Source: Bacteroidota bacterium
GTDB taxonomy: Bacteria; Bacteroidota; Bacteroidia; Chitinophagales; Saprospiraceae
Direction: 5' to 3'
DNA: 64,000 bases
Assembly: GCA_024642705.1 (NCBI GenBank)
Contig: JAHEAQ010000016.1
Location: 1 to 64,000, forward strand
Positions 43,731 through 52,555 of the stretch are shown here, piece by piece. A program made the position numbers and the translations under genes. Each line of letters opens with the position of its first letter. Position 1 is the stretch's first letter. The notes under the pieces are model-generated. The model searched no databases and had not been told where the DNA came from. It saw only the letters and a list, made by a program, of their open reading frames with translations.

Positions 43731-43761
43731 TTGCTTAACGAATATAATTATAGTACTTTTG
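43731..43761 (+). promoter_or_regulatory. Promoter of the amidoligase operon
   Basis: TTG at 43731-43733, a 20-base spacer and TACTTTTG at 43754-43761 match the Bacteroidota TTG / TAnnTTTG consensus well. It lies 55 bases before the first gene at 43817 and just after the DedA stop codon. Confidence 0.55.
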
Positions 43762-43816
43762 CATTTTTTTTACAGAAAGTACATATTTTTTAGTATTATT
43801 AATCAACACAATTAAT

Positions 43817-44524
43817 TTGAAAGAAGAACATAAAAAGTGGTATTCTCCTACCTTAAACAAAGAAATGGAGATGCTAATTTTCGGGCACGCGGGATATCCC
43901 GTAATCCTATTTCCAACAACTATGGGTCGATTCTATGAATGTAAAGATTTTTTACTTTTAGATTCAGTTAGATGGTTTTTGGATCAAGGACTTGTACAAA
44001 TTTATTGCCCAGATAGTATCAACGAACTAAGTTGGTACAATAAGAATATTCACCCAGCAGAAAGAGTGAAAAATCACATGTGGTATGATCAATTTATTTT
44101 AGATGAAGTTGTGAATGCAATTCGACATGAAAAAGGAATGTCCAAAATTGCTGTTGCGGGTCCAAGTTTTGGTGGTTATCAAGCGGCAAATTTTGCTTTC
44201 AGACATCCGGATGCCGTGAGTCACATGTTTAGTATGAGTGGTTCATTTGATATCAAATCATTTGTTGATGGGTATTACGATGACAATGTCTTTTTCAATA
44301 ACCCGGTTGATTTCTTACCTGGCAACAATAATCCAGAACTTTGGAAAATGAAGATCATTCTTGGAGTTGGTGAGTGGGATATTTGTCTGGATGCAAATCA
44401 AAGGTTATCAGAAATATTATCAATAAAACAAATTCCACATTGGTTGGATTTAAGAAGATGGGCAAAACATGATTGGCCATTATGGAGGGAGATGTTTCCT
44501 CATTATTTATCCACATTATCATAA
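43817..44524 (+). CDS. Esterase-like alpha/beta hydrolase of the amidoligase operon
   Basis: A 235-residue protein of the putative esterase (esterase D-like) type. The nucleophile serine lies in AGPSFGGYQ (about residue 117), the acid in GVGEWDICLD and the histidine in WAKHDWP. The start is TTG at 43817; the N-terminus KEEHKKWYSPTLNKEMEML fits the family with no earlier start. No signal peptide, so it is cytoplasmic. It opens a five-gene plus-strand operon (gaps of 15, 42, 9 and 6 bases) of ATP-grasp, GCS2, glutamine amidotransferase and ATP-grasp. It may cleave or transfer an acyl or peptidyl ester of the operon's product. Confidence 0.8.
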   Translation: MKEEHKKWYSPTLNKEMEMLIFGHAGYPVILFPTTMGRFYECKDFLLLDSVRWFLDQGLVQIYCPDSINELSWYNKNIHPAERVKNHMWYDQFILDEVVNAIRHEKGMSKIAVAGPSFGGYQAANFAFRHPDAVSHMFSMSGSFDIKSFVDGYYDDNVFFNNPVDFLPGNNNPELWKMKIILGVGEWDICLDANQRLSEILSIKQIPHWLDLRRWAKHDWPLWREMFPHYLSTLS

Positions 44525-44539
44525 TCTATTCGTTCAAAG

Positions 44540-45712
44540 ATGAAAAAAATAGGCATTTTATTCGGGAAAGAAAATACCTTTCCACAAGCATTTATCGACA
44601 GAGTAAATGAAAAAAAATTAAAAGATATTACTGCAGAAGCTGTGCATATTGACATGGTTCAACAAGCAAAGCCGACTGATTACGCTGTAATCATTGACAG
44701 AATTTCACAAGATGTTCCTTTCTACAGAGCTTTCTTGAAAAATGCTGCAATTTCTGGTACTGCTGTTATTAACAATCCATTTTGGTGGAGCGCTGATGAG
44801 AAATTTTTCAACAATGCATTAGCAGAAAAAATTGGTGTTCCTGTACCAAAAACTGTGATTTTACCATCTTATGAAAGACCTGATGATACTGGAGAAGAGT
44901 CATTTAGGAATCTTGCTATGCCATTTGGTTGGGATAAAATATTTTCATATGTTGGTTTTCCTGCATATATGAAACCACATGATGGAGGTGGATGGAAAAG
45001 TGTTTATAAAGTGAATGATGCTAACCAATTGTTCGCTAACCATGCTGAAACTCAGCAATTGGTAATGATGTTGCAAGAAGAAATCCAATTTACTGAATAT
45101 TTCAGATGCTATGTGCTAGGAGGGAATCGTGTTCATATCATGCAATATGAGCCTAGAAATCCTCATCATGAAAGATATGTGTTAGATGGACCTCCAGTTG
45201 ACAAGGCTATTTTGAAAAAAGTAGAAGAATATTGCATTAAATTAAATCAAGCATTAGGTTATGATTTCAATACAGTAGAATTTGCAATTCGAGATGGAAT
45301 TCCTTATGCTATTGATTTTTGCAATCCTGCACCAGATGCAGATATCCATTCAGTCGGCCAAGAAAATTTCGATTGGATAGTTGAAAATGCAGCTGATTTA
45401 GCAATTGAAAAGGCAAAGTCTTATCAGAAAGGCAAAATGAATTTGACTTGGGGAACATTTATTAAGGATCAATTCAGCAATTCTCCTACTAAGCCGGAAA
45501 CTGTTGCTAAAGCAAAAACGCCAATAGCAAAAACTGCAGCAGCAAAACCTGCAGCAAAAGTTCAACCAGTTGCCAAAAAAGCAGCTCCGTCTAAAACTGA
45601 AAAAGCAGAAAAAGTAAAAACAGCAGAAAAAGCTGCACCAAATGCAAAGGCAAAACCCGCAGCAGCAAAAAAGGCTCCAGCTGCGAAAAAGAAGCCTGCA
45701 CCTAAAAAATAA
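44540..45712 (+). CDS. ATP-grasp ligase with lysine/alanine-rich tail
   Basis: A 390-residue protein. Residues 1-310 are an ATP-grasp fold of the RimK/D-Ala-D-Ala ligase type: a small N-terminal domain, the glycine-rich loop KPHDGGGWKSVYKV (about 152-165), QEEIQFTEYFRCYVLG, and the metal-binding VEFAIRDGIPYAIDFCNPAP. Such enzymes form an amide or ester through an acyl-phosphate. Residues about 318-390 are a low-complexity tail of Lys, Ala and Pro (AKTAAAKPAAK, AAKKAPAAKKK), unusual for a ligase. The tail may bind nucleic acid or polyanions, or be a substrate for the neighbouring ligases; nothing proves either. It is 15 bases after the esterase. Confidence 0.85.
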   Translation: MKKIGILFGKENTFPQAFIDRVNEKKLKDITAEAVHIDMVQQAKPTDYAVIIDRISQDVPFYRAFLKNAAISGTAVINNPFWWSADEKFFNNALAEKIGVPVPKTVILPSYERPDDTGEESFRNLAMPFGWDKIFSYVGFPAYMKPHDGGGWKSVYKVNDANQLFANHAETQQLVMMLQEEIQFTEYFRCYVLGGNRVHIMQYEPRNPHHERYVLDGPPVDKAILKKVEEYCIKLNQALGYDFNTVEFAIRDGIPYAIDFCNPAPDADIHSVGQENFDWIVENAADLAIEKAKSYQKGKMNLTWGTFIKDQFSNSPTKPETVAKAKTPIAKTAAAKPAAKVQPVAKKAAPSKTEKAEKVKTAEKAAPNAKAKPAAAKKAPAAKKKPAPKK

Positions 45713-45754
45713 ATTGTAATTTCATATAATCATAAAGCTATAAAAATTGATAAT

Positions 45755-46852
45755 ATGCATTTTACTTTAGGTATTGAAGAAGAATATCAAGTTATCGACC
45801 CAGTTACAAGGGAGCTTATTTCACACGATCAAAAAATCGTAGAAGTAGCAGAAAAACATCTTGAAGAGCAGGTTAAAGCGGAAATGCACCAAGCTGTTGT
45901 AGAAATTGGGACTAAAGTATGTCAGGATATTCATGAAGCGAGGAAGGAACTCACTTATTTGAGAAAAACCATTTCTGAAATTGCAGTAGACCTTGGTTTT
46001 AGAATAGGAGCTTCGGGAACCCATCCATTTTCGGAGTGGGAAAAACAGCTTATTACGCCGAATCCGAGATATGACGAGATTATAAAAGAGATGCAGGATA
46101 CTGCAAGATCGAATTTGATTTTTGGTCTTCATGTACATGTAGGAATGGAAAGTAAAATGTTGGCATTGCAAATTCAAAATTCAATGCGTTATTTTCTACC
46201 TCACATTTATGCATTGTCTACGAATTCTCCTTTTTGGGAAGGAAGAAACACAGGATTTAAATCATTTAGATCAAAGGTATTTGACAAATTTCCAAGAACT
46301 GGAATTCCAGATGTATTTCAAAGTCTTGCGCAATATGAAAATTATATCAATTTATTGATTAAAACTGGTTGTATTGATAATCCAAAGAAAATATGGTGGG
46401 ATATTAGGGCCCACCCTTTTTATCCTACTTTGGAAATAAGGATTTGTGATATACCAATGACTGTAAATGAGACCATATGTATAACAGCAGTTATTCAAGC
46501 CATAGTAGCGAAGTTATATAAATTGCGAACTCAAAATATGACTTTCAATATTTACCATCGATCGCTAATTAATGAAAATAAATGGCGAGCTGGCAGATAT
46601 GGATTGGACGGCAAATTAATTGATTTTGGAAAGGAAATTGAAGTCGATACAAGGTCAATGCTTTATGAACTTTTAGAATTTATTGATGATGTAGTAGACG
46701 AATTAGGATCTAGAGATGAAATTGAAAAGGTGAAAAATTTAATTGAAAAAGGCACAGGAGCTGATAGGCAGCTAGCAGTTTTTGAGGAAACAAAAGATTT
46801 GGCAAAAGTAGTTGATTATATCATCGAACAAACTTTAGATGGTGTTCATTAA
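45755..46852 (+). CDS. GCS2-type carboxylate-amine ligase (YbdK-like)
   Basis: A 365-residue member of glutamate-cysteine ligase family 2. Signatures are FTLGIEEEYQVIDPVTREL, with the metal-binding glutamates at the start, VEIGTKVCQDIHEARKEL, FGLHVHVGMES and WWDIRAHPFYPTLEIRICD. These ligases join a glutamate or related carboxylate to an amine with ATP. Among ATP-grasp enzymes and an amidotransferase, it probably makes one of the amide bonds of the operon's product, rather than glutathione, since no glutathione synthetase neighbour is seen. The C-terminus is alpha-helical and acidic, as usual. Confidence 0.9.
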   Translation: MHFTLGIEEEYQVIDPVTRELISHDQKIVEVAEKHLEEQVKAEMHQAVVEIGTKVCQDIHEARKELTYLRKTISEIAVDLGFRIGASGTHPFSEWEKQLITPNPRYDEIIKEMQDTARSNLIFGLHVHVGMESKMLALQIQNSMRYFLPHIYALSTNSPFWEGRNTGFKSFRSKVFDKFPRTGIPDVFQSLAQYENYINLLIKTGCIDNPKKIWWDIRAHPFYPTLEIRICDIPMTVNETICITAVIQAIVAKLYKLRTQNMTFNIYHRSLINENKWRAGRYGLDGKLIDFGKEIEVDTRSMLYELLEFIDDVVDELGSRDEIEKVKNLIEKGTGADRQLAVFEETKDLAKVVDYIIEQTLDGVH

Positions 46853-46861
46853 TATTAATAA

Positions 46862-47680
46862 TTGAACGTGAAAAAAATAAAATTAGCTATCCTTGATATG
46901 AATAACAAAGCCAAAAATGAAGGCTTGAGATGTATTAAGGAAATCGTTGCAGAATTCGATAGCGAAGTGGATTGGGAAGTTTTTGATATACGTGGTGAAA
47001 ATAGTTTCCCAGACTTATCTTTTGATATTTTTATTTCAAGTGGTGGACCTGGAAGCCCGCTGGAGGAAGGAGAGTGGAAGCAAAGATATTTCGACCTTGT
47101 TGACAATGTCTGGAAGCATAATTTAAAAAAGGAAAATGACAAAAAATATTTTTTCTTTATTTGTTACTCTTTCCAAGTAGCATGTGAACATTTCAAACTT
47201 TGCACCATTAACAGAAGAAAGAGTACATCATTTGGGGTTTTTCCGATCCATAAAACTAAGGTTGGAAAAAAAGATCCAATTTTAAGCCATTTGAGGAATC
47301 CATATTATGCTGTAGATTCAAGGGATTGGCAAGTTGTACAACCAAAACATGAGGTTTTTGAAGAGCATGGAGCAAAAATATTAAGCATTGAAACTTTTAG
47401 GACCCATGCCGAATACGAAAGGGCAATCATGGCAGTTAGTTTTTCTGATGAATTTTTTGGAACTCAATTTCATCCTGAAGCAGATCCTGAAGGCATGAAA
47501 GCCTATTTTTCTAGGGGAGAAATGAAGGAAAAAATTATCAGTAATTACGATGAACAGAAATATATTGATATGATTGAGCACATTGATGATCCTGATAAAA
47601 TTAGAAAAACTCATGAAACTATTTTACCAGTTTTCATTGCGACGGCTATTGAGAAAATTTCTTCATTAATACTTGTATAA
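46862..47680 (+). CDS. Class I glutamine amidotransferase-like protein
   Basis: A 272-residue GATase1 protein. The catalytic cysteine lies in FFICYSFQVA (near residue 101; the usual GxCLGxQ is changed to ICYSFQ), and the histidine and glutamate in GTQFHPEADPEGM. The oxyanion strand ISSGGPGSPLE is intact. The start is TTG at 46862, with a GTG two codons on as an alternative. It may feed ammonia to a ligase or hydrolyse a gamma-glutamyl bond, as related PuuD-type proteins do. The C-terminal 60 residues are an extra helical piece. It sits between GCS2 and an ATP-grasp gene with gaps under 10 bases. Confidence 0.82.
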   Translation: MNVKKIKLAILDMNNKAKNEGLRCIKEIVAEFDSEVDWEVFDIRGENSFPDLSFDIFISSGGPGSPLEEGEWKQRYFDLVDNVWKHNLKKENDKKYFFFICYSFQVACEHFKLCTINRRKSTSFGVFPIHKTKVGKKDPILSHLRNPYYAVDSRDWQVVQPKHEVFEEHGAKILSIETFRTHAEYERAIMAVSFSDEFFGTQFHPEADPEGMKAYFSRGEMKEKIISNYDEQKYIDMIEHIDDPDKIRKTHETILPVFIATAIEKISSLILV

Positions 47681-47686
47681 ATTTTT

Positions 47687-48883
47687 ATGATAAAGTCATT
47701 TAGAGATAAATTTAATGCACAATTTTCAGAAGAAAAGTACGATTCATTTTTGAAAGACATCGAAGATGAATTTAAATATAAGCCAGATTTTAGGATCGCT
47801 GAATCTCCAGTTTTTATTCCAAAAAATCTAAAAAATAAACTTCTTGAAGCTTGTGATGATATTCTTGCTGTGGTTAATAAACCAAATTTCAAAGAATTAA
47901 CTAGAGATGCTATTATACATCCTTCGCTGCACGTTCCTGCGGAAGATTATAGGTCGAGGTTTATTCAATTTGACTTTGGGATTTGCAGAGATGAAAATGG
48001 TGAACTTACTCCAAAACTGATAGAATTACAAGGTTTCCCATCCCTTTACTTTTTTCAAGATTTTTTATCAAGTAAATACCGCAAACATTTTGATATACCA
48101 GCAAATGTTTCCATCCATCTAAATGGAATAAATAGAGAAGAATATGTCGAAATGTTGCGGCATGAGATTGTTGGGGAAACAGAACCAAGTCAAGTTGTTC
48201 TATTGGAGATTGAACCTGAAAAGCAAGTCACGAGAATTGACTTTTTGTGTGCCGAAAAACTACTAGGGATAAAGGTTTTGTGCATCAGTAAAATGAAAAA
48301 AAGAGGCAAGGAGTTGTTTTATGAAAATGAGGATGGAAAAGATGTGAAAATTTTAAAAATTTACAATCGAGTAATATTTGATGAATTGAACAAAAGATCA
48401 GATATCCAAAGAGAGTTTTATTTTAAAGATGAAGTGGATGTAGAATGGGTTGGACACCCAAATTGGTTTTTTAGAATAAGTAAATACACACTTCCTTTAC
48501 TGCATGGAAAATATGTTCCAAAATCTTATTATTTGGACAAATTAACAGCTTATCCAGAAGACTTGGAAAATTTTGTGTTAAAACCATTGTATTCCTTTGC
48601 AGGATCTGGCGTTTTACTTAACATAAATAAGGAAATTTTGGATGAAATTGAAGATAAAGAAAACTATATTTTACAAGAAAAAGTCCATTATGCCCCAGTA
48701 ATTGAAACACCTGATGGGTTCGCAAAATGTGAAATAAGAATGATGACTTTATTCAATACAAAAGAAAAAAAGGCCAACGTCGTTTGTAATTTAATGCGAT
48801 TAACAAAAGGTGAAATGGTAGGTGTTAAATACAACAAAAATAAAACCTGGGTAGGCGGCAGTATTGGATTTTTCGAAGAATAA
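47687..48883 (+). CDS. Circularly permuted-type ATP-grasp ligase (tentative)
   Basis: A 398-residue protein that I place among divergent ATP-grasp ligases. The metal-site-like IELQGFPSLYFFQ is at about residues 107-120. Late in the chain comes the nucleotide-binding loop ENFVLKPLYSFAGSGV (about 286-301), then YILQEKVHYAP and CEIRMMTLFN. Metal-site residues before the nucleotide loop is the order seen in glutathionylspermidine synthetase and circularly permuted ATP-grasp enzymes. It is 6 bases after the amidotransferase, an amidase-plus-synthetase pairing that recalls glutathionylspermidine metabolism. Last gene of the plus-strand operon. Confidence 0.65.
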   Translation: MIKSFRDKFNAQFSEEKYDSFLKDIEDEFKYKPDFRIAESPVFIPKNLKNKLLEACDDILAVVNKPNFKELTRDAIIHPSLHVPAEDYRSRFIQFDFGICRDENGELTPKLIELQGFPSLYFFQDFLSSKYRKHFDIPANVSIHLNGINREEYVEMLRHEIVGETEPSQVVLLEIEPEKQVTRIDFLCAEKLLGIKVLCISKMKKRGKELFYENEDGKDVKILKIYNRVIFDELNKRSDIQREFYFKDEVDVEWVGHPNWFFRISKYTLPLLHGKYVPKSYYLDKLTAYPEDLENFVLKPLYSFAGSGVLLNINKEILDEIEDKENYILQEKVHYAPVIETPDGFAKCEIRMMTLFNTKEKKANVVCNLMRLTKGEMVGVKYNKNKTWVGGSIGFFEE

Positions 48884-49034
48884 GAATTAGTAAAAATCAA
48901 TTCAGCTATAATTTTTCAGACTTAAGTTGTTTGTAAATACTCAGAATGGTTAAAGTTTCTCTGGGGATAAAGCTTTGGTGCTTAAATTTGATTGGCAATA
49001 TTTACAACCAAATGCATTGAATTAACCAAGAATC

Positions 49035-49082
49035 TTGTTTTAGTGGCATTTTTAACCAAAAAAGATGATGAAATTGTCATTT
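49035..49082 (+). repeat. Dispersed 48-base repeat, copy 2
   Basis: Begins TTGTTTTAGTGGCATTTTTA and matches 39061-39108. It sits in the gap between the two convergent amidoligase operons, where no gene or clear terminator was seen. Confidence 0.6.
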
Positions 49083-49133
49083 CATGCATATTTCTCGTCT
49101 ATTTGGGCAGACTTAATCATTTTTTATAACATC

Positions 49134-50336
49134 TTAATGCTCCAATTTATTAGACGGAGGAAGACTTGCGTGAAACTCTTTTGAAATTATTTCAGTATAT
49201 TTTTCCAACAATTCCAATACTCTTTCTCTAGAATCAGATTCTACAATAAAACCAATATGCCACGGAAAGTTCATCTTCCATTTAATTTCCTTGTCTTTGA
49301 ATATTGATATGTCTGGATATTCATATCTGGTTAAAGAAACTACAATTCCAGCATAGGTATTTTTTATTTTTGGTAATACATATGGGACTTTTTTGAATGC
49401 GGCAGTTTCTATTCTGGCCCATTCTCCCCATAAATTTACACCCGAAGCTATTTCAACCATTTCAGCAAGATTAGCCCCTCCTACCCTTGATGAAGTTTCA
49501 AGAAAATATATTTTACCATCAGATTTAGACTTAATAAATTCTGTGTGTGAAGCACCAAATCTTAATCCGAAGGCTTCCACAACCTGTTTATTTGCTTTAG
49601 TCAATGCTTTTTCATCTTTTGTGCCAGTTTCTATGGTACAAGAACGAAAGATTCCACCTCCATGGGCTACATTGAATGGTGTATCCAAATATTGGCTAAC
49701 CCTTGAAAACACAACTTTACCTTCATAATTCAAACAATCTACATGAAACACATCTCCAGGAGCAAACTTTTCTATTAAATACCTATGCCGGTCATCGCCT
49801 AATTCATTCACAATATTCCATAACTCTTGCTTGTTATTTATTTTCTGAATTCCTTTGGCCGAAGCCTCGAGTCTTGGTTTCAAAAGCCATGGAGCCGGCA
49901 CATTGTCAGCAAATTCATTTATTTCATTATCATTAAACAGTGGAATAAAATCTGGGATTTGGACTCCAGCATCCTTTGCCTTGAATCTCATTGCAAGTTT
50001 ATCTCTGAAATGCTGAGCTGTAGTTTCCCCCATTCCTGGCATTCTGAAATATTCCCTTAATCTAGCTACCTTTTCAACGTCAAAATCATCCAAAGCCACA
50101 AAAACATCAAATTTTAGTGAACGAAATTTGTAAGCTATTCCATTAGTTACATGCCCTTGGACCCATTCTTCAATGTAAAATACTTCATCAATAGAGTCCC
50201 ATGGCCAATCTTCGTGCTCAAGACTTTTTTTGGTGAGCAAGAAAACTACATTTCCCTCAGCTTTACAACTTTTTAAAAAGTCTTGGCCTTTAAAATAAGT
50301 GGAAACACATAAAAAATTTATAGGACGAGATTGCAT
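49134..50336 (-). CDS. ATP-grasp ligase, carbamoyl-phosphate-synthase-like
   Basis: A 400-residue ATP-grasp enzyme of the PurT/carbamoyl-phosphate synthase-large-subunit-like group. The order is: N-terminal Rossmann-like domain (residues 1-110), the ATP-grasp loop PWLLKPRLEASAKGIQKI (about 145-162), RYLIEKFAPGDVFHVDCLNY, then IYFLETSSRVGGANLAEM with the metal-binding glutamate and arginine. It belongs to a minus-strand operon of esterase - M17 aminopeptidase - this gene (gap 6 bases), convergent with the plus-strand amidoligase operon. A cytoplasmic ligase joining an amino or carboxyl partner is expected; the substrate cannot be told. Confidence 0.85.
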   Translation of the reverse strand: MQSRPINFLCVSTYFKGQDFLKSCKAEGNVVFLLTKKSLEHEDWPWDSIDEVFYIEEWVQGHVTNGIAYKFRSLKFDVFVALDDFDVEKVARLREYFRMPGMGETTAQHFRDKLAMRFKAKDAGVQIPDFIPLFNDNEINEFADNVPAPWLLKPRLEASAKGIQKINNKQELWNIVNELGDDRHRYLIEKFAPGDVFHVDCLNYEGKVVFSRVSQYLDTPFNVAHGGGIFRSCTIETGTKDEKALTKANKQVVEAFGLRFGASHTEFIKSKSDGKIYFLETSSRVGGANLAEMVEIASGVNLWGEWARIETAAFKKVPYVLPKIKNTYAGIVVSLTRYEYPDISIFKDKEIKWKMNFPWHIGFIVESDSRERVLELLEKYTEIISKEFHASLPPSNKLEH

Positions 50337-50342
50337 AATATT

Positions 50343-51764
50343 TTATATTAATGTTTTCATAAATTCAACTAAAAGTCTAACGCCATATCCAGACGCACAT
50401 TTCATTTTAGCATACTCCGAAGAGCCAAATGCTACGCCCGCAATATCTAAATGAGCCCATTTTTCATGCTCTTCGGTAAATGCTTCTAGAAATTTTGCAG
50501 CTGTAATAGCTCCAGCAATTGGTTTTCCGCTAAAGTTCCTAAGATCTGCAATATCAGACTGAATATCTTCGTCGAAATCATCATAAAGCGGCAGATGCCA
50601 TAATCTTTCATGAATACTCGCTCCTACTTTGCTTAGAGAATCCGCAAGTTCATTATTAGTTGTAAACATACCGCCAGCTGAATATCCAAGGGTTCTTACA
50701 ACGCTACCTGTTAAAGTTGCCAAATCAATCATATGGTCTGGATTGTATGTGTTAACCATATGACTTAATCCATCAGCTAGAACCAATCGTCCTTCAGCGT
50801 CGGTATCTATTATTTCAATAGTTTTTCCAGAATGCGAATGAATTACATCGCCTGGTCTAATACTATTTGCGTCAACTGCATTTTCTGCAGCAGCTATGAT
50901 TCCCACTACATTGATTTCTAATTTGAGTTTAGCTGCCAATTCAACAGCCCCAAGAACTGCAGCTGCTCCGCCCATATCACTCTTCATGTAATGAAGGTTA
51001 GCCGATGGCTTAATGGATAATCCACCAGTATCAAAAGTTATACCTTTTCCTACTAACCCTAAATCGATTTGATCTGTTTTCTTGGCCTTATGACTTACAA
51101 CAATTAAACAAGGTTCGTTTATACTCCCCTGCCCTACAGCTAATAATGCTCCAAAGCCTTCTTTCTCTAATTTGCTTTTATTCCAAACTTCACAATTATA
51201 GTTATATTTCTTAGCTGAATCCTGAGCCCATTTTCCTAGAAATTCTGGTGTTTTTTGGTTGGCAGGTGCATCAATTAGCGTTTTAATACTATTAATTGTA
51301 TCTCCACTTTGTTCGCCTTCTTTAATAAATCCCATTATATCGCCCAGAGCAACAAATGAAATTGTGGTGTCTTTTTTGGCTTCTATACCTTCATTTAGAT
51401 TTGACTTAAATACACCCAAATTATAAGTAGCCATTTGAATTCCTATAGCGGCTTGCTTAATTTCTTCAAAGTTTAAATTAGAACAATCCAATTGAATGTC
51501 CGACCAATATTTTTTATTATAAAAAGTAATTTTTCTAAATGCATCTTTCAGTTTTACTGCATCTTTTTCTTCTCCTAATCCCAAAAGGTAAATTCGTCTG
51601 CCCGAATTAGAATAAAGCATTTGGCATTTTGCAAAATCACCTTCAAAATCAATATTTTTAATTCCAGTTATTTTTTCAATTTGATTAGTATCAACCGCAT
51701 TTTTACGAAATGGTAAAATCAAATCTAGATCATAGTTTATCGTTGGTACTTGTATATACTTCAT
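50343..51764 (-). CDS. Leucyl aminopeptidase (M17)
   Basis: A 473-residue cytosolic metallo-aminopeptidase. The catalytic C-terminal half has VGKGITFDTGGLSIKP, YMKSDMGGAAAVLG and the family signature DTDAEGRLVLADGL, all needed for the two-zinc site, plus AGAITAAKFLEAF. The N-terminal domain is divergent. Members cleave N-terminal residues, and PepA also processes Cys-Gly from glutathione breakdown. Its 4-base overlap with the upstream esterase gene and 6-base gap to an ATP-grasp ligase suggest a dedicated trimming role in the pathway rather than general housekeeping; that is inference. Confidence 0.92.
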   Translation of the reverse strand: MKYIQVPTINYDLDLILPFRKNAVDTNQIEKITGIKNIDFEGDFAKCQMLYSNSGRRIYLLGLGEEKDAVKLKDAFRKITFYNKKYWSDIQLDCSNLNFEEIKQAAIGIQMATYNLGVFKSNLNEGIEAKKDTTISFVALGDIMGFIKEGEQSGDTINSIKTLIDAPANQKTPEFLGKWAQDSAKKYNYNCEVWNKSKLEKEGFGALLAVGQGSINEPCLIVVSHKAKKTDQIDLGLVGKGITFDTGGLSIKPSANLHYMKSDMGGAAAVLGAVELAAKLKLEINVVGIIAAAENAVDANSIRPGDVIHSHSGKTIEIIDTDAEGRLVLADGLSHMVNTYNPDHMIDLATLTGSVVRTLGYSAGGMFTTNNELADSLSKVGASIHERLWHLPLYDDFDEDIQSDIADLRNFSGKPIAGAITAAKFLEAFTEEHEKWAHLDIAGVAFGSSEYAKMKCASGYGVRLLVEFMKTLI

Positions 51765-52555
51765 ATTTTTTTATTGTAAAACAACCACTTTATTGCTTCA
51801 GGAAACTCTTCTCTCCAATAAATTTCTCCGTGTTCACCTTCAAGATTAATTTTCACTACCAGATCAAAAAAGTCGTTAGATATATCTTTTTTCAATAGTA
51901 TTTTTTCCATTTTTAACACATTTGGTAAGTGAGACTTACTTTCTTTGCCTCCTGCGTATAAATAAATCTTTGAACTTTGAGTTGGAGCAAAATCCATAGC
52001 ATTTTCAAAAATTATATTTGAAATCCACAAACTTGGAGAAAAAATCATCATTTTGCCAAAAATGTTCGGTTCAGTCAACCCTCCAAATAAACTAATCAAG
52101 CCACCCATTGAACTACCTCCTATACCAGTATTTTCATGGTCTTGTAAAGTGCGGTATTTGTTATTTACATAGGGAATTAATTTGTCTTTCATGAATTGTA
52201 TGTAATGTTTCCCTAATCCTTGCCCATATTTTGGGTGAAAATCAGGCAAATATTCTCTTATCCTTTCATGCTCTCCGTGATCAATTGCAATTATGATTAC
52301 GTCCTTAAAACCTTCTGAAGCAAGTTTGGATAGGGACTTATCAATTGCCCAATCTCCAAATGGGGCATGAGGATTAAACAAATTTTGTCCATCCTGAAGA
52401 TAAAGAACAGGGTACTTTTTATCAGAATCGTGATAATCATATGGTAATAAAGCTGATATTTTTCTTGTTGAGTCTAAATGGGCTACGGTATAAGCTTCTT
52501 CTATCACTACAATTATTGGGTCAAACTCGCTCACTTTTTTTGCGCCAAAATACAT
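51761..52555 (-). CDS. Esterase D-like alpha/beta hydrolase
   Basis: A 264-residue cytoplasmic hydrolase of the putative-esterase family. It has LPYDYHDSDKKYPVLYLQDG, the nucleophile serine in GIGGSSMGGLIS (about residue 146), and the histidine in GEHGEIYWREEFP. There is no signal peptide. The stop codon overlaps the start of the aminopeptidase gene. It parallels the esterase that opens the opposing operon, so each operon has one such hydrolase. Confidence 0.82.
   Translation of the reverse strand: MYFGAKKVSEFDPIIVVIEEAYTVAHLDSTRKISALLPYDYHDSDKKYPVLYLQDGQNLFNPHAPFGDWAIDKSLSKLASEGFKDVIIIAIDHGEHERIREYLPDFHPKYGQGLGKHYIQFMKDKLIPYVNNKYRTLQDHENTGIGGSSMGGLISLFGGLTEPNIFGKMMIFSPSLWISNIIFENAMDFAPTQSSKIYLYAGGKESKSHLPNVLKMEKILLKKDISNDFFDLVVKINLEGEHGEIYWREEFPEAIKWLFYNKKI

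Follow-up and report, generated by a model that had tools for sequence, protein, structure and literature searches.

A 64,000-nucleotide stretch of contig JAHEAQ010000016.1 (here called the window), from the 5.7 Mb genome of a Saprospiraceae bacterium of the phylum Bacteroidota (GenBank assembly GCA_024642705.1), carries eight genes arranged in two convergent operons. In this analysis we coined the names estA, grsA, gcs2, gat and grsB for the genes on the plus strand, and estB, m17 and grsC for those on the minus strand. We put the probability at about 0.5 that the eight genes constitute one cytosolic pathway, in which a small peptide-like conjugate is assembled through a series of ATP-dependent ligations and then trimmed. 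The core enzymes are present together in about one third of the sampled Bacteroidota genomes and nearly always missing together elsewhere, which points to one shared metabolite. The strongest single result is that one slot of the pathway is filled by two different ligases, GrsB or GrsB2, as seen from their position and distribution.

The phylum sample consisted of 296 Bacteroidota genomes, searched with match cut-offs of 1e-3 for grsB, 1e-20 for grsA, gcs2 and gat, and 1e-40 for grsC. Homologs of grsA were found in 107 genomes, grsB in 91, gat in 70, grsC in 65 and gcs2 in 102, ten of the gcs2 matches being of 35–42% identity and possibly other YbdK-like proteins. One of 92 grsB matches, a fragment with stops in G104 (E 9.7e-4), had been removed; among the 60 nearest genomes 27 carry grsB. 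Both grsA and either grsB or grsB2 occur in 103 genomes, grsA only in four, grsB or grsB2 only in three, and neither in 186. The earlier note made on this DNA from its sequence left room for the ATP-grasp genes being housekeeping genes of other pathways; since 186 of 296 genomes have neither grsA nor grsB or grsB2, they are not.

The core gene pairs are far from independent across the 296 genomes. Because relatives share genes, labels were permuted 20,000 times within 21 families (listed by hand, covering 143 of the 296 genomes). The combination of grsA with grsB or grsB2 was observed 82 times, against a mean of 61 and a maximum of 70 in the shuffles, and for five other pairs tested the observed value was likewise never reached. 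A genome with both grsA and grsB or grsB2 is present in 20 of the 21 families.

A second ligase gene, grsB2, encodes a circularly permuted ATP-grasp protein (of two members scanned, one exceeds the PF14403 cut-off) and was sought in 119 genomes: the 19 with grsA and without grsB, 86 of the 91 with grsB, and 14 with neither. It was found in 15 of the 19, the remaining four encoding a divergent grsA (33–43% identity). It was absent from all 14 sampled cluster-free genomes and from 85 of the 86 grsB-positive ones, the exception being a 37% identical match in G193. In all 15 genomes grsB2 adjoins grsA, and in 14 it is located between grsA and gat, the latter lying on another contig in G344; three of these loci were read directly and the other positions taken from match coordinates. 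All 15 genomes encode gat. The profiles of grsB and grsB2 match weakly (E 4.8e-4, probability 32), so common descent is possible and the term substitute refers to position and distribution. Comparison of grsB2 with YgiC by hhalign gave no significant match (E 0.4).

The surroundings of grsB were fetched for 60 of the 91 grsB-positive genomes. At least one partner is located directly upstream on the same strand in 34 loci, of which 11 have the order estA-grsA-gcs2-gat-grsB, three the full set of eight genes and 20 other runs. The full run, estB-m17-grsC-estA-grsA-gcs2-gat-grsB, all in the same orientation, was seen in three genomes belonging to a different family. All eight genes are also present in L085. 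It is conceivable that two unrelated operons met by chance in the window, and the two modules are indeed approximately 21 and 26 kb apart in G001 (of the window's genus) and G002, and grsC often stands without a core gene beside it. We regard this explanation, already disfavoured, as highly improbable: every one of the 65 grsC genomes also encodes grsA, together with grsB or grsB2, and three genomes carry all eight genes as one co-directional run, so the two operons belong together. The earlier note had treated them as one cluster, and they do co-occur in other Bacteroidota. In trees of grsA, grsB and gat, the window sequences group with the two same-genus genomes, with G045, from a different family in the order, and with G280, from another order in the class, at 97–100% bootstrap, with weak inner branching.

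No Pfam model scores GrsB above its cut-off (PF14397 comes closest, with 19.9 bits where 31.4 are required), and the assignment of GrsB as an ATP-grasp protein comes from a structural model. The AlphaFold2 model, built from 47 aligned sequences, has a confidence score (pLDDT) of 93.5 and is predicted to have the full-length fold of glutathione and glutathionylspermidine synthetases and of YgiC/YjfC. The Z scores were 26.8 for YjfC, 26.4 for YgiC, 25.3 for GspS and 24.2 for human glutathione synthetase; over the top 21 entries Z was 22.3–26.8, with a root-mean-square deviation of 3.2–4.3 and 315–370 of 398 residues aligned. All 26 entries with Z of at least 19.5 are glutathione, glutathionylspermidine or trypanothione synthetases, nematode glutathione-synthetase-like effectors, YgiC/YjfC or the fungal ligase Cp1B (Z 22.7), and the next match drops to 12.5. 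Foldseek returned 21 matches with E of 0.001 or less (1.8e-14 to 4.0e-7), all to that synthetase family, YgiC/YjfC or Cp1B. Sequence similarity is weak: identity to YgiC/YjfC is 13–14%, a profile search of the PDB matched YgiC weakly (0.019), and hhalign against Escherichia coli YgiC gave E 7.4e-5 and probability 62 over 79 columns only. The earlier note had stated that no glutathione synthetase is present, which does not agree with a model carrying the complete fold of these enzymes.

Gat is modelled (pLDDT 94.2) as a class I glutamine amidotransferase (GATase) fold with a Cys-His-Glu triad, Cys101/His204/Glu206, which is intact in the window and invariant in 37 of 37 sequences. The fold and triad of the glutamine amidotransferase named earlier stand; the function could equally be that of a gamma-glutamyl peptidase, and genomics does not settle the choice. 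Foldseek ranked Arabidopsis gamma-glutamyl peptidase 1 (GGP1) first, whereas VIA-align placed the amidotransferase TM1158 (Z 23.3) slightly ahead of the gamma-glutamyl peptidase (22.0), which was tied with the amidotransferase DnfC (22.3). Gat might be a true glutaminase handing ammonia to GrsB, with the pathway ending in a terminal carboxamide, as in the osmolyte N-acetylglutaminylglutamine amide. The invariant triad and the top rank of TM1158 are consistent with this, as is the strict association of gat with grsB or grsB2 (70 of 70 genomes); moreover, gat and grsB remain neighbours even without grsA beside them, the pair standing alone in four of 60 loci, as expected of an ammonia donor. We nevertheless consider a glutaminase role rather unlikely, as gat is missing from 34 of the 103 genomes that have grsA plus grsB or grsB2, GGP1 is the first Foldseek match, and where another gene takes its place that gene encodes a peptidase and not a second glutaminase. 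In four loci (G309, G149, G325 and G305), all from genomes without gat, an M29-family peptidase gene is located between gcs2 and grsB; one of these loci has a short open reading frame (ORF) between, and one was scanned with Pfam. A metallopeptidase in the gat position suits a hydrolase role of Gat.

The second operon encodes GrsC, which matches the solved L-amino acid ligase 4wd3 (6.8e-17), together with an M17 aminopeptidase and an esterase. In the host genome (G000) m17 is the sole M17 gene found (one match at E of 1e-20 or less). The 20 genomes of the M17 search were chosen by hand and do not form a sample. In the 14 chosen for having grsC with m17, an M17 gene is located beside grsC in all and is the only one found in 13, and no M17 was found in five of the six chosen as cluster-free. 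The estB gene adjoins m17-grsC in several other families, and estA stands next to the core operon, on its upstream side, in numerous Bacteroidota loci. With the M17 enzyme and two esterases there are three hydrolases besides the GATase-like protein, one more than the earlier note had counted.

Relatives of estA (28–37% identity) also occur in 15 plasmid records, and at three of six places read on plasmids (Peptoclostridium, Pararhizobium and Sinorhizobium) an estA-like gene stands beside a grsC-like ATP-grasp gene; a plasmid search with grsA gave no match. In L111, L117, L120, L129, L132, L138 and other loci the estA/grsA operon is immediately preceded by a divergently transcribed gene of another esterase family, F5est, whose one scanned member matches PF00756. 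The estB genes of L133, L134, L137, L196 and L207 encode an extra N-terminal stretch of approximately 110 residues, missing in the window's estB, which resembles an E-set or carbohydrate-binding-like domain (GNFNxWNP-type motif).

GrsA is weakly RimK-like (TIGR00768, 39 bits against a cut-off of 143.4); it may work like a RimK-type ATP-grasp enzyme and is not classed as RimK. The only PDB matches of its profile were weak ones to biotin carboxylase and acetyl-CoA carboxylase. The C-terminal 84 residues are rich in Lys, Ala and Pro (23 K, 24 A, 11 P and 5 D/E) and resemble a histone-H1-type tail. RimK-type ligases can modify proteins, and the gene set might be a peptide-tagging system, with the ligases attaching amino acids or amines to a protein from which the peptidases and esterases would take them off again. 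A Lys/Ala-rich tail of at least 40 residues is present in 12 of 42 GrsA sequences (the window included, one genome counted twice), and five of 34 GrsA members gave a weak match to the R2K_2 ATP-grasp model, for which the window protein is below cut-off; protein modification is proposed for the R2K_2 clade in excerpts of PMC4431377. However, no short target-like gene is among the 25 commonest neighbour families, where ORFs below 70 amino acids were not called, and the closest GrsB folds act on small peptides, so that we find protein tagging quite unlikely. Within the same limits there was no precursor gene for a graspetide, a ribosomally synthesized and post-translationally modified peptide.

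Gcs2 scores well above the cut-off of the GCS2/YbdK family profile (NF010039, 541.8 bits against 371), matches ybdK (PDB 1r8g) at 4.6e-49, and reaches the cut-off of none of the NCBIfam glutamate-cysteine ligase models listed for it. Its GIEEE sequence close to the N terminus fits the GhExE motif of GCS2/YbdK ligases given in excerpts of PMC2588565. A GCS2 ligase combined with a glutathione-synthetase fold, a gamma-glutamyl-peptidase-like protein and an M17 peptidase resembles the parts of glutathione synthesis and turnover, and could be read as a low-molecular-weight thiol pathway replacing bacillithiol. This we hold to be very unlikely: genomes without gcs2 keep the remaining genes. Replacement of bacillithiol was rejected, since bshC is kept in 290 of the 296 genomes, with and without the cluster, and nothing is replaced.

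The gene content fits the stepwise building and trimming of amide bonds that was suggested earlier. The pathway we propose would start with Gcs2 and the RimK-like GrsA, which form the initial amide bonds and yield a gamma-glutamyl or amino-acid amide. GrsB, replaced by GrsB2 in other lineages, would then join the C-terminal carboxylate of the peptide to an amine (polyamine or amino acid), a step modelled on glutathionylspermidine synthetase, YgiC/YjfC and glutathione synthetase. Gat would remove or exchange the gamma-glutamyl group, with the M29 peptidase replacing it in some operons, and an accessory module of GrsC, M17 and EstB may make and recycle a dipeptide feeding the pathway. We rate a glutathionylspermidine-like gamma-glutamyl-peptide amine conjugate as the most likely product class. 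That class, the cytosolic location, the order of steps and the substrates are assigned by inference, the observed part being the gene content, the modelled folds of GrsB and Gat, the linkage, the co-inheritance and the exchange of GrsB for GrsB2.

Several observations weigh against a single pathway of this kind. There is no polyamine gene among the eight. As many as 26 of the 60 grsB loci have no partner directly upstream, grsA is within 6 kb of grsB in just 30 of them, and m17 adjoins grsC in just seven of 20 loci fetched around grsC. The gcs2 gene is absent from 13 of the 106 genomes with grsB or grsB2, including both same-genus genomes and eight of the 15 with grsB2, so the GCS2 step would be dispensable. 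The absence of gat from a third of the core-positive genomes, the local extent of the link between GrsB and YgiC, and the VIA-align ranking of Gat count on the same side.

Recurring neighbours are sparse. Within two genes of a core gene, the commonest unnamed family was found in just seven of the loci examined, and the sole recurring transporter family, an ABC ATPase, in four, three of them from the window's genus (one genome counted twice). Together with the wide and often unlinked distribution this is easier to reconcile with an intracellular metabolite than with a secreted antibiotic. We tentatively suggest, at somewhat less than even odds, that Bacteroidota share widely an undescribed intracellular gamma-glutamyl-peptide/amine conjugate. 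Three or four stand-alone ligases would make it and dedicated peptidases and esterases would turn it over in about one third of the sampled genomes, and cluster mining would easily overlook it, as the genes are often scattered.

Amidoligase operons with more than one ligase belong to a kind of system already known from prediction, and the 2009 amidoligase survey by Iyer, Aravind and colleagues reportedly describes operons combining several ligases with peptidases. Our literature search, outside which that survey fell, recognised no paper describing this gene set; excerpts of two ATP-grasp papers (PMC8939145 and PMC4431377) do not describe it, and no annotation naming the product was seen. Excerpts of a paper published by the Aravind group in 2008 (PMC2588565) mention a GCS2-sized ligase located beside a GATase-like thiol peptidase in proteobacteria. 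Glutathionylspermidine synthetase/amidase and the peptide-spermidine ligases YgiC/YjfC share with the present system the full-length fold of GrsB (Z 25–27) and the weak local sequence link to YgiC. A hydrolase is likewise encoded with the glutathionylspermidine ligase, there as a fused amidase and here as a separate GATase-fold or M29 protein; the operon described here differs further in its two additional ligases and in the low sequence identity. Glutathione biosynthesis is similar in that a GCS2 ligase and a ligase of the eukaryote-type glutathione-synthetase fold are encoded in one operon, whereas here the GCS2 protein is YbdK-like and absent from the same-genus genomes, and bshC is kept. 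YgiC and YjfC are called peptidylpolyamine synthetases in excerpts of PMC12568646, where the fungal E-64 amide ligase Cp1B is their structural relative. As far as excerpts of that paper and of PMC6586884 (pseudouridimycin PumK/PumM) go, these systems also use stand-alone amide ligases in sequence, with no nonribosomal peptide synthetase; they are product clusters of fungi and Streptomyces, whereas the present set is distributed over a large number of families within a single phylum, its genes often lying apart. The L-amino acid ligases (4wd3, BL00235, BacD) resemble GrsC, which differs in occurring, within the sample, solely in grsA genomes, sometimes in an operon with M17 and an esterase.

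The features of the locus are listed in Table 1. All eight ORFs are in the place and of the families given in the earlier note, and their coordinates bear out the spacing it described: gaps of 15, 42, 9 and 6 bases from estA to grsB, a 4-base overlap of estB and m17, and a 6-base gap between m17 and grsC. The 3' ends of the facing operons are 250 bases apart. The promoter that the note called good is exactly present as a pattern, and its frequency in the window is at chance (three matches against 2.73 expected), so its position before estA is the sole argument for it. A sigma-70 scan was uninformative (52 promoter-like sites against 52.3 expected).

Table 1. Positions of the promoter match and the eight genes in the window, with predicted products.
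Feature	Coordinates	Strand	Description	Evidence
Promoter match	43731..43761	+	TTG-N20-TAnnTTTG, Bacteroidota-type	Seen in sequence, 55 bases before estA
estA	43817..44524	+	Alpha/beta hydrolase, PF00756 esterase family, 235 aa, TTG start	PF00756 5.5e-8
grsA	44540..45712	+	RimK/LysX-like ATP-grasp ligase, 84-residue Lys/Ala-rich C-terminal tail	TIGR00768 39 bits
gcs2	45755..46852	+	YbdK-type carboxylate-amine ligase (GCS2), GIEEE motif	PF04107 1e-62, NF010039
gat	46862..47680	+	Class I glutamine-amidotransferase fold; amidotransferase or gamma-glutamyl peptidase	PF00117 3.9e-9, model
grsB	47687..48883	+	Divergent ATP-grasp, predicted glutathionylspermidine/glutathione synthetase fold	AlphaFold2 model
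grsC	49134..50336	-	ATP-grasp, L-amino acid (dipeptide) ligase kind	PF13535 2.7e-8, 4wd3
m17	50343..51764	-	Leucyl aminopeptidase family M17	PF00883 3.5e-113
estB	51761..52555	-	PF00756 esterase family hydrolase	PF00756 8.7e-28

Some further neighbours and homologs were observed. In L133, L134 and L137 (G331, G070 and G151, of one genus) a cyanophycin synthetase gene follows the eight-gene run, downstream of grsB and on the opposite strand, and in two of these genomes a short ORF intervenes; one of these synthetases was scanned with Pfam (PF18921, Mur ligase and RimK domains) and the others were assigned by clustering. A link to cyanophycin was rejected: no match over the TIGR02068 cut-off exists in the window's genome, so the gene is a lineage-specific neighbour in those three genomes. 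In L169, L170 and L175, all of family f43, the gene immediately after grsA, in the same orientation, clusters with an annotated histidine ammonia-lyase (hutH), which itself sits near the estA-like gene of Peptoclostridium (L163). Contig C80 (L002) of the host genome carries a second, distant GCS2-like ORF of approximately 640 residues, the end of which looks like CBS domains.

Ligases that are inherited as a set across a phylum, even where their genes lie apart, and one of which has given way to a very different enzyme, show the behaviour of a genuine metabolic pathway on which selection acts. Our reading predicts that GrsB and GrsB2 are interchangeable and that GrsC feeds GrsA. The identity of the product would give many Bacteroidota a new cofactor-like or storage metabolite, and would give the GCS2/YbdK-type enzymes a function there.

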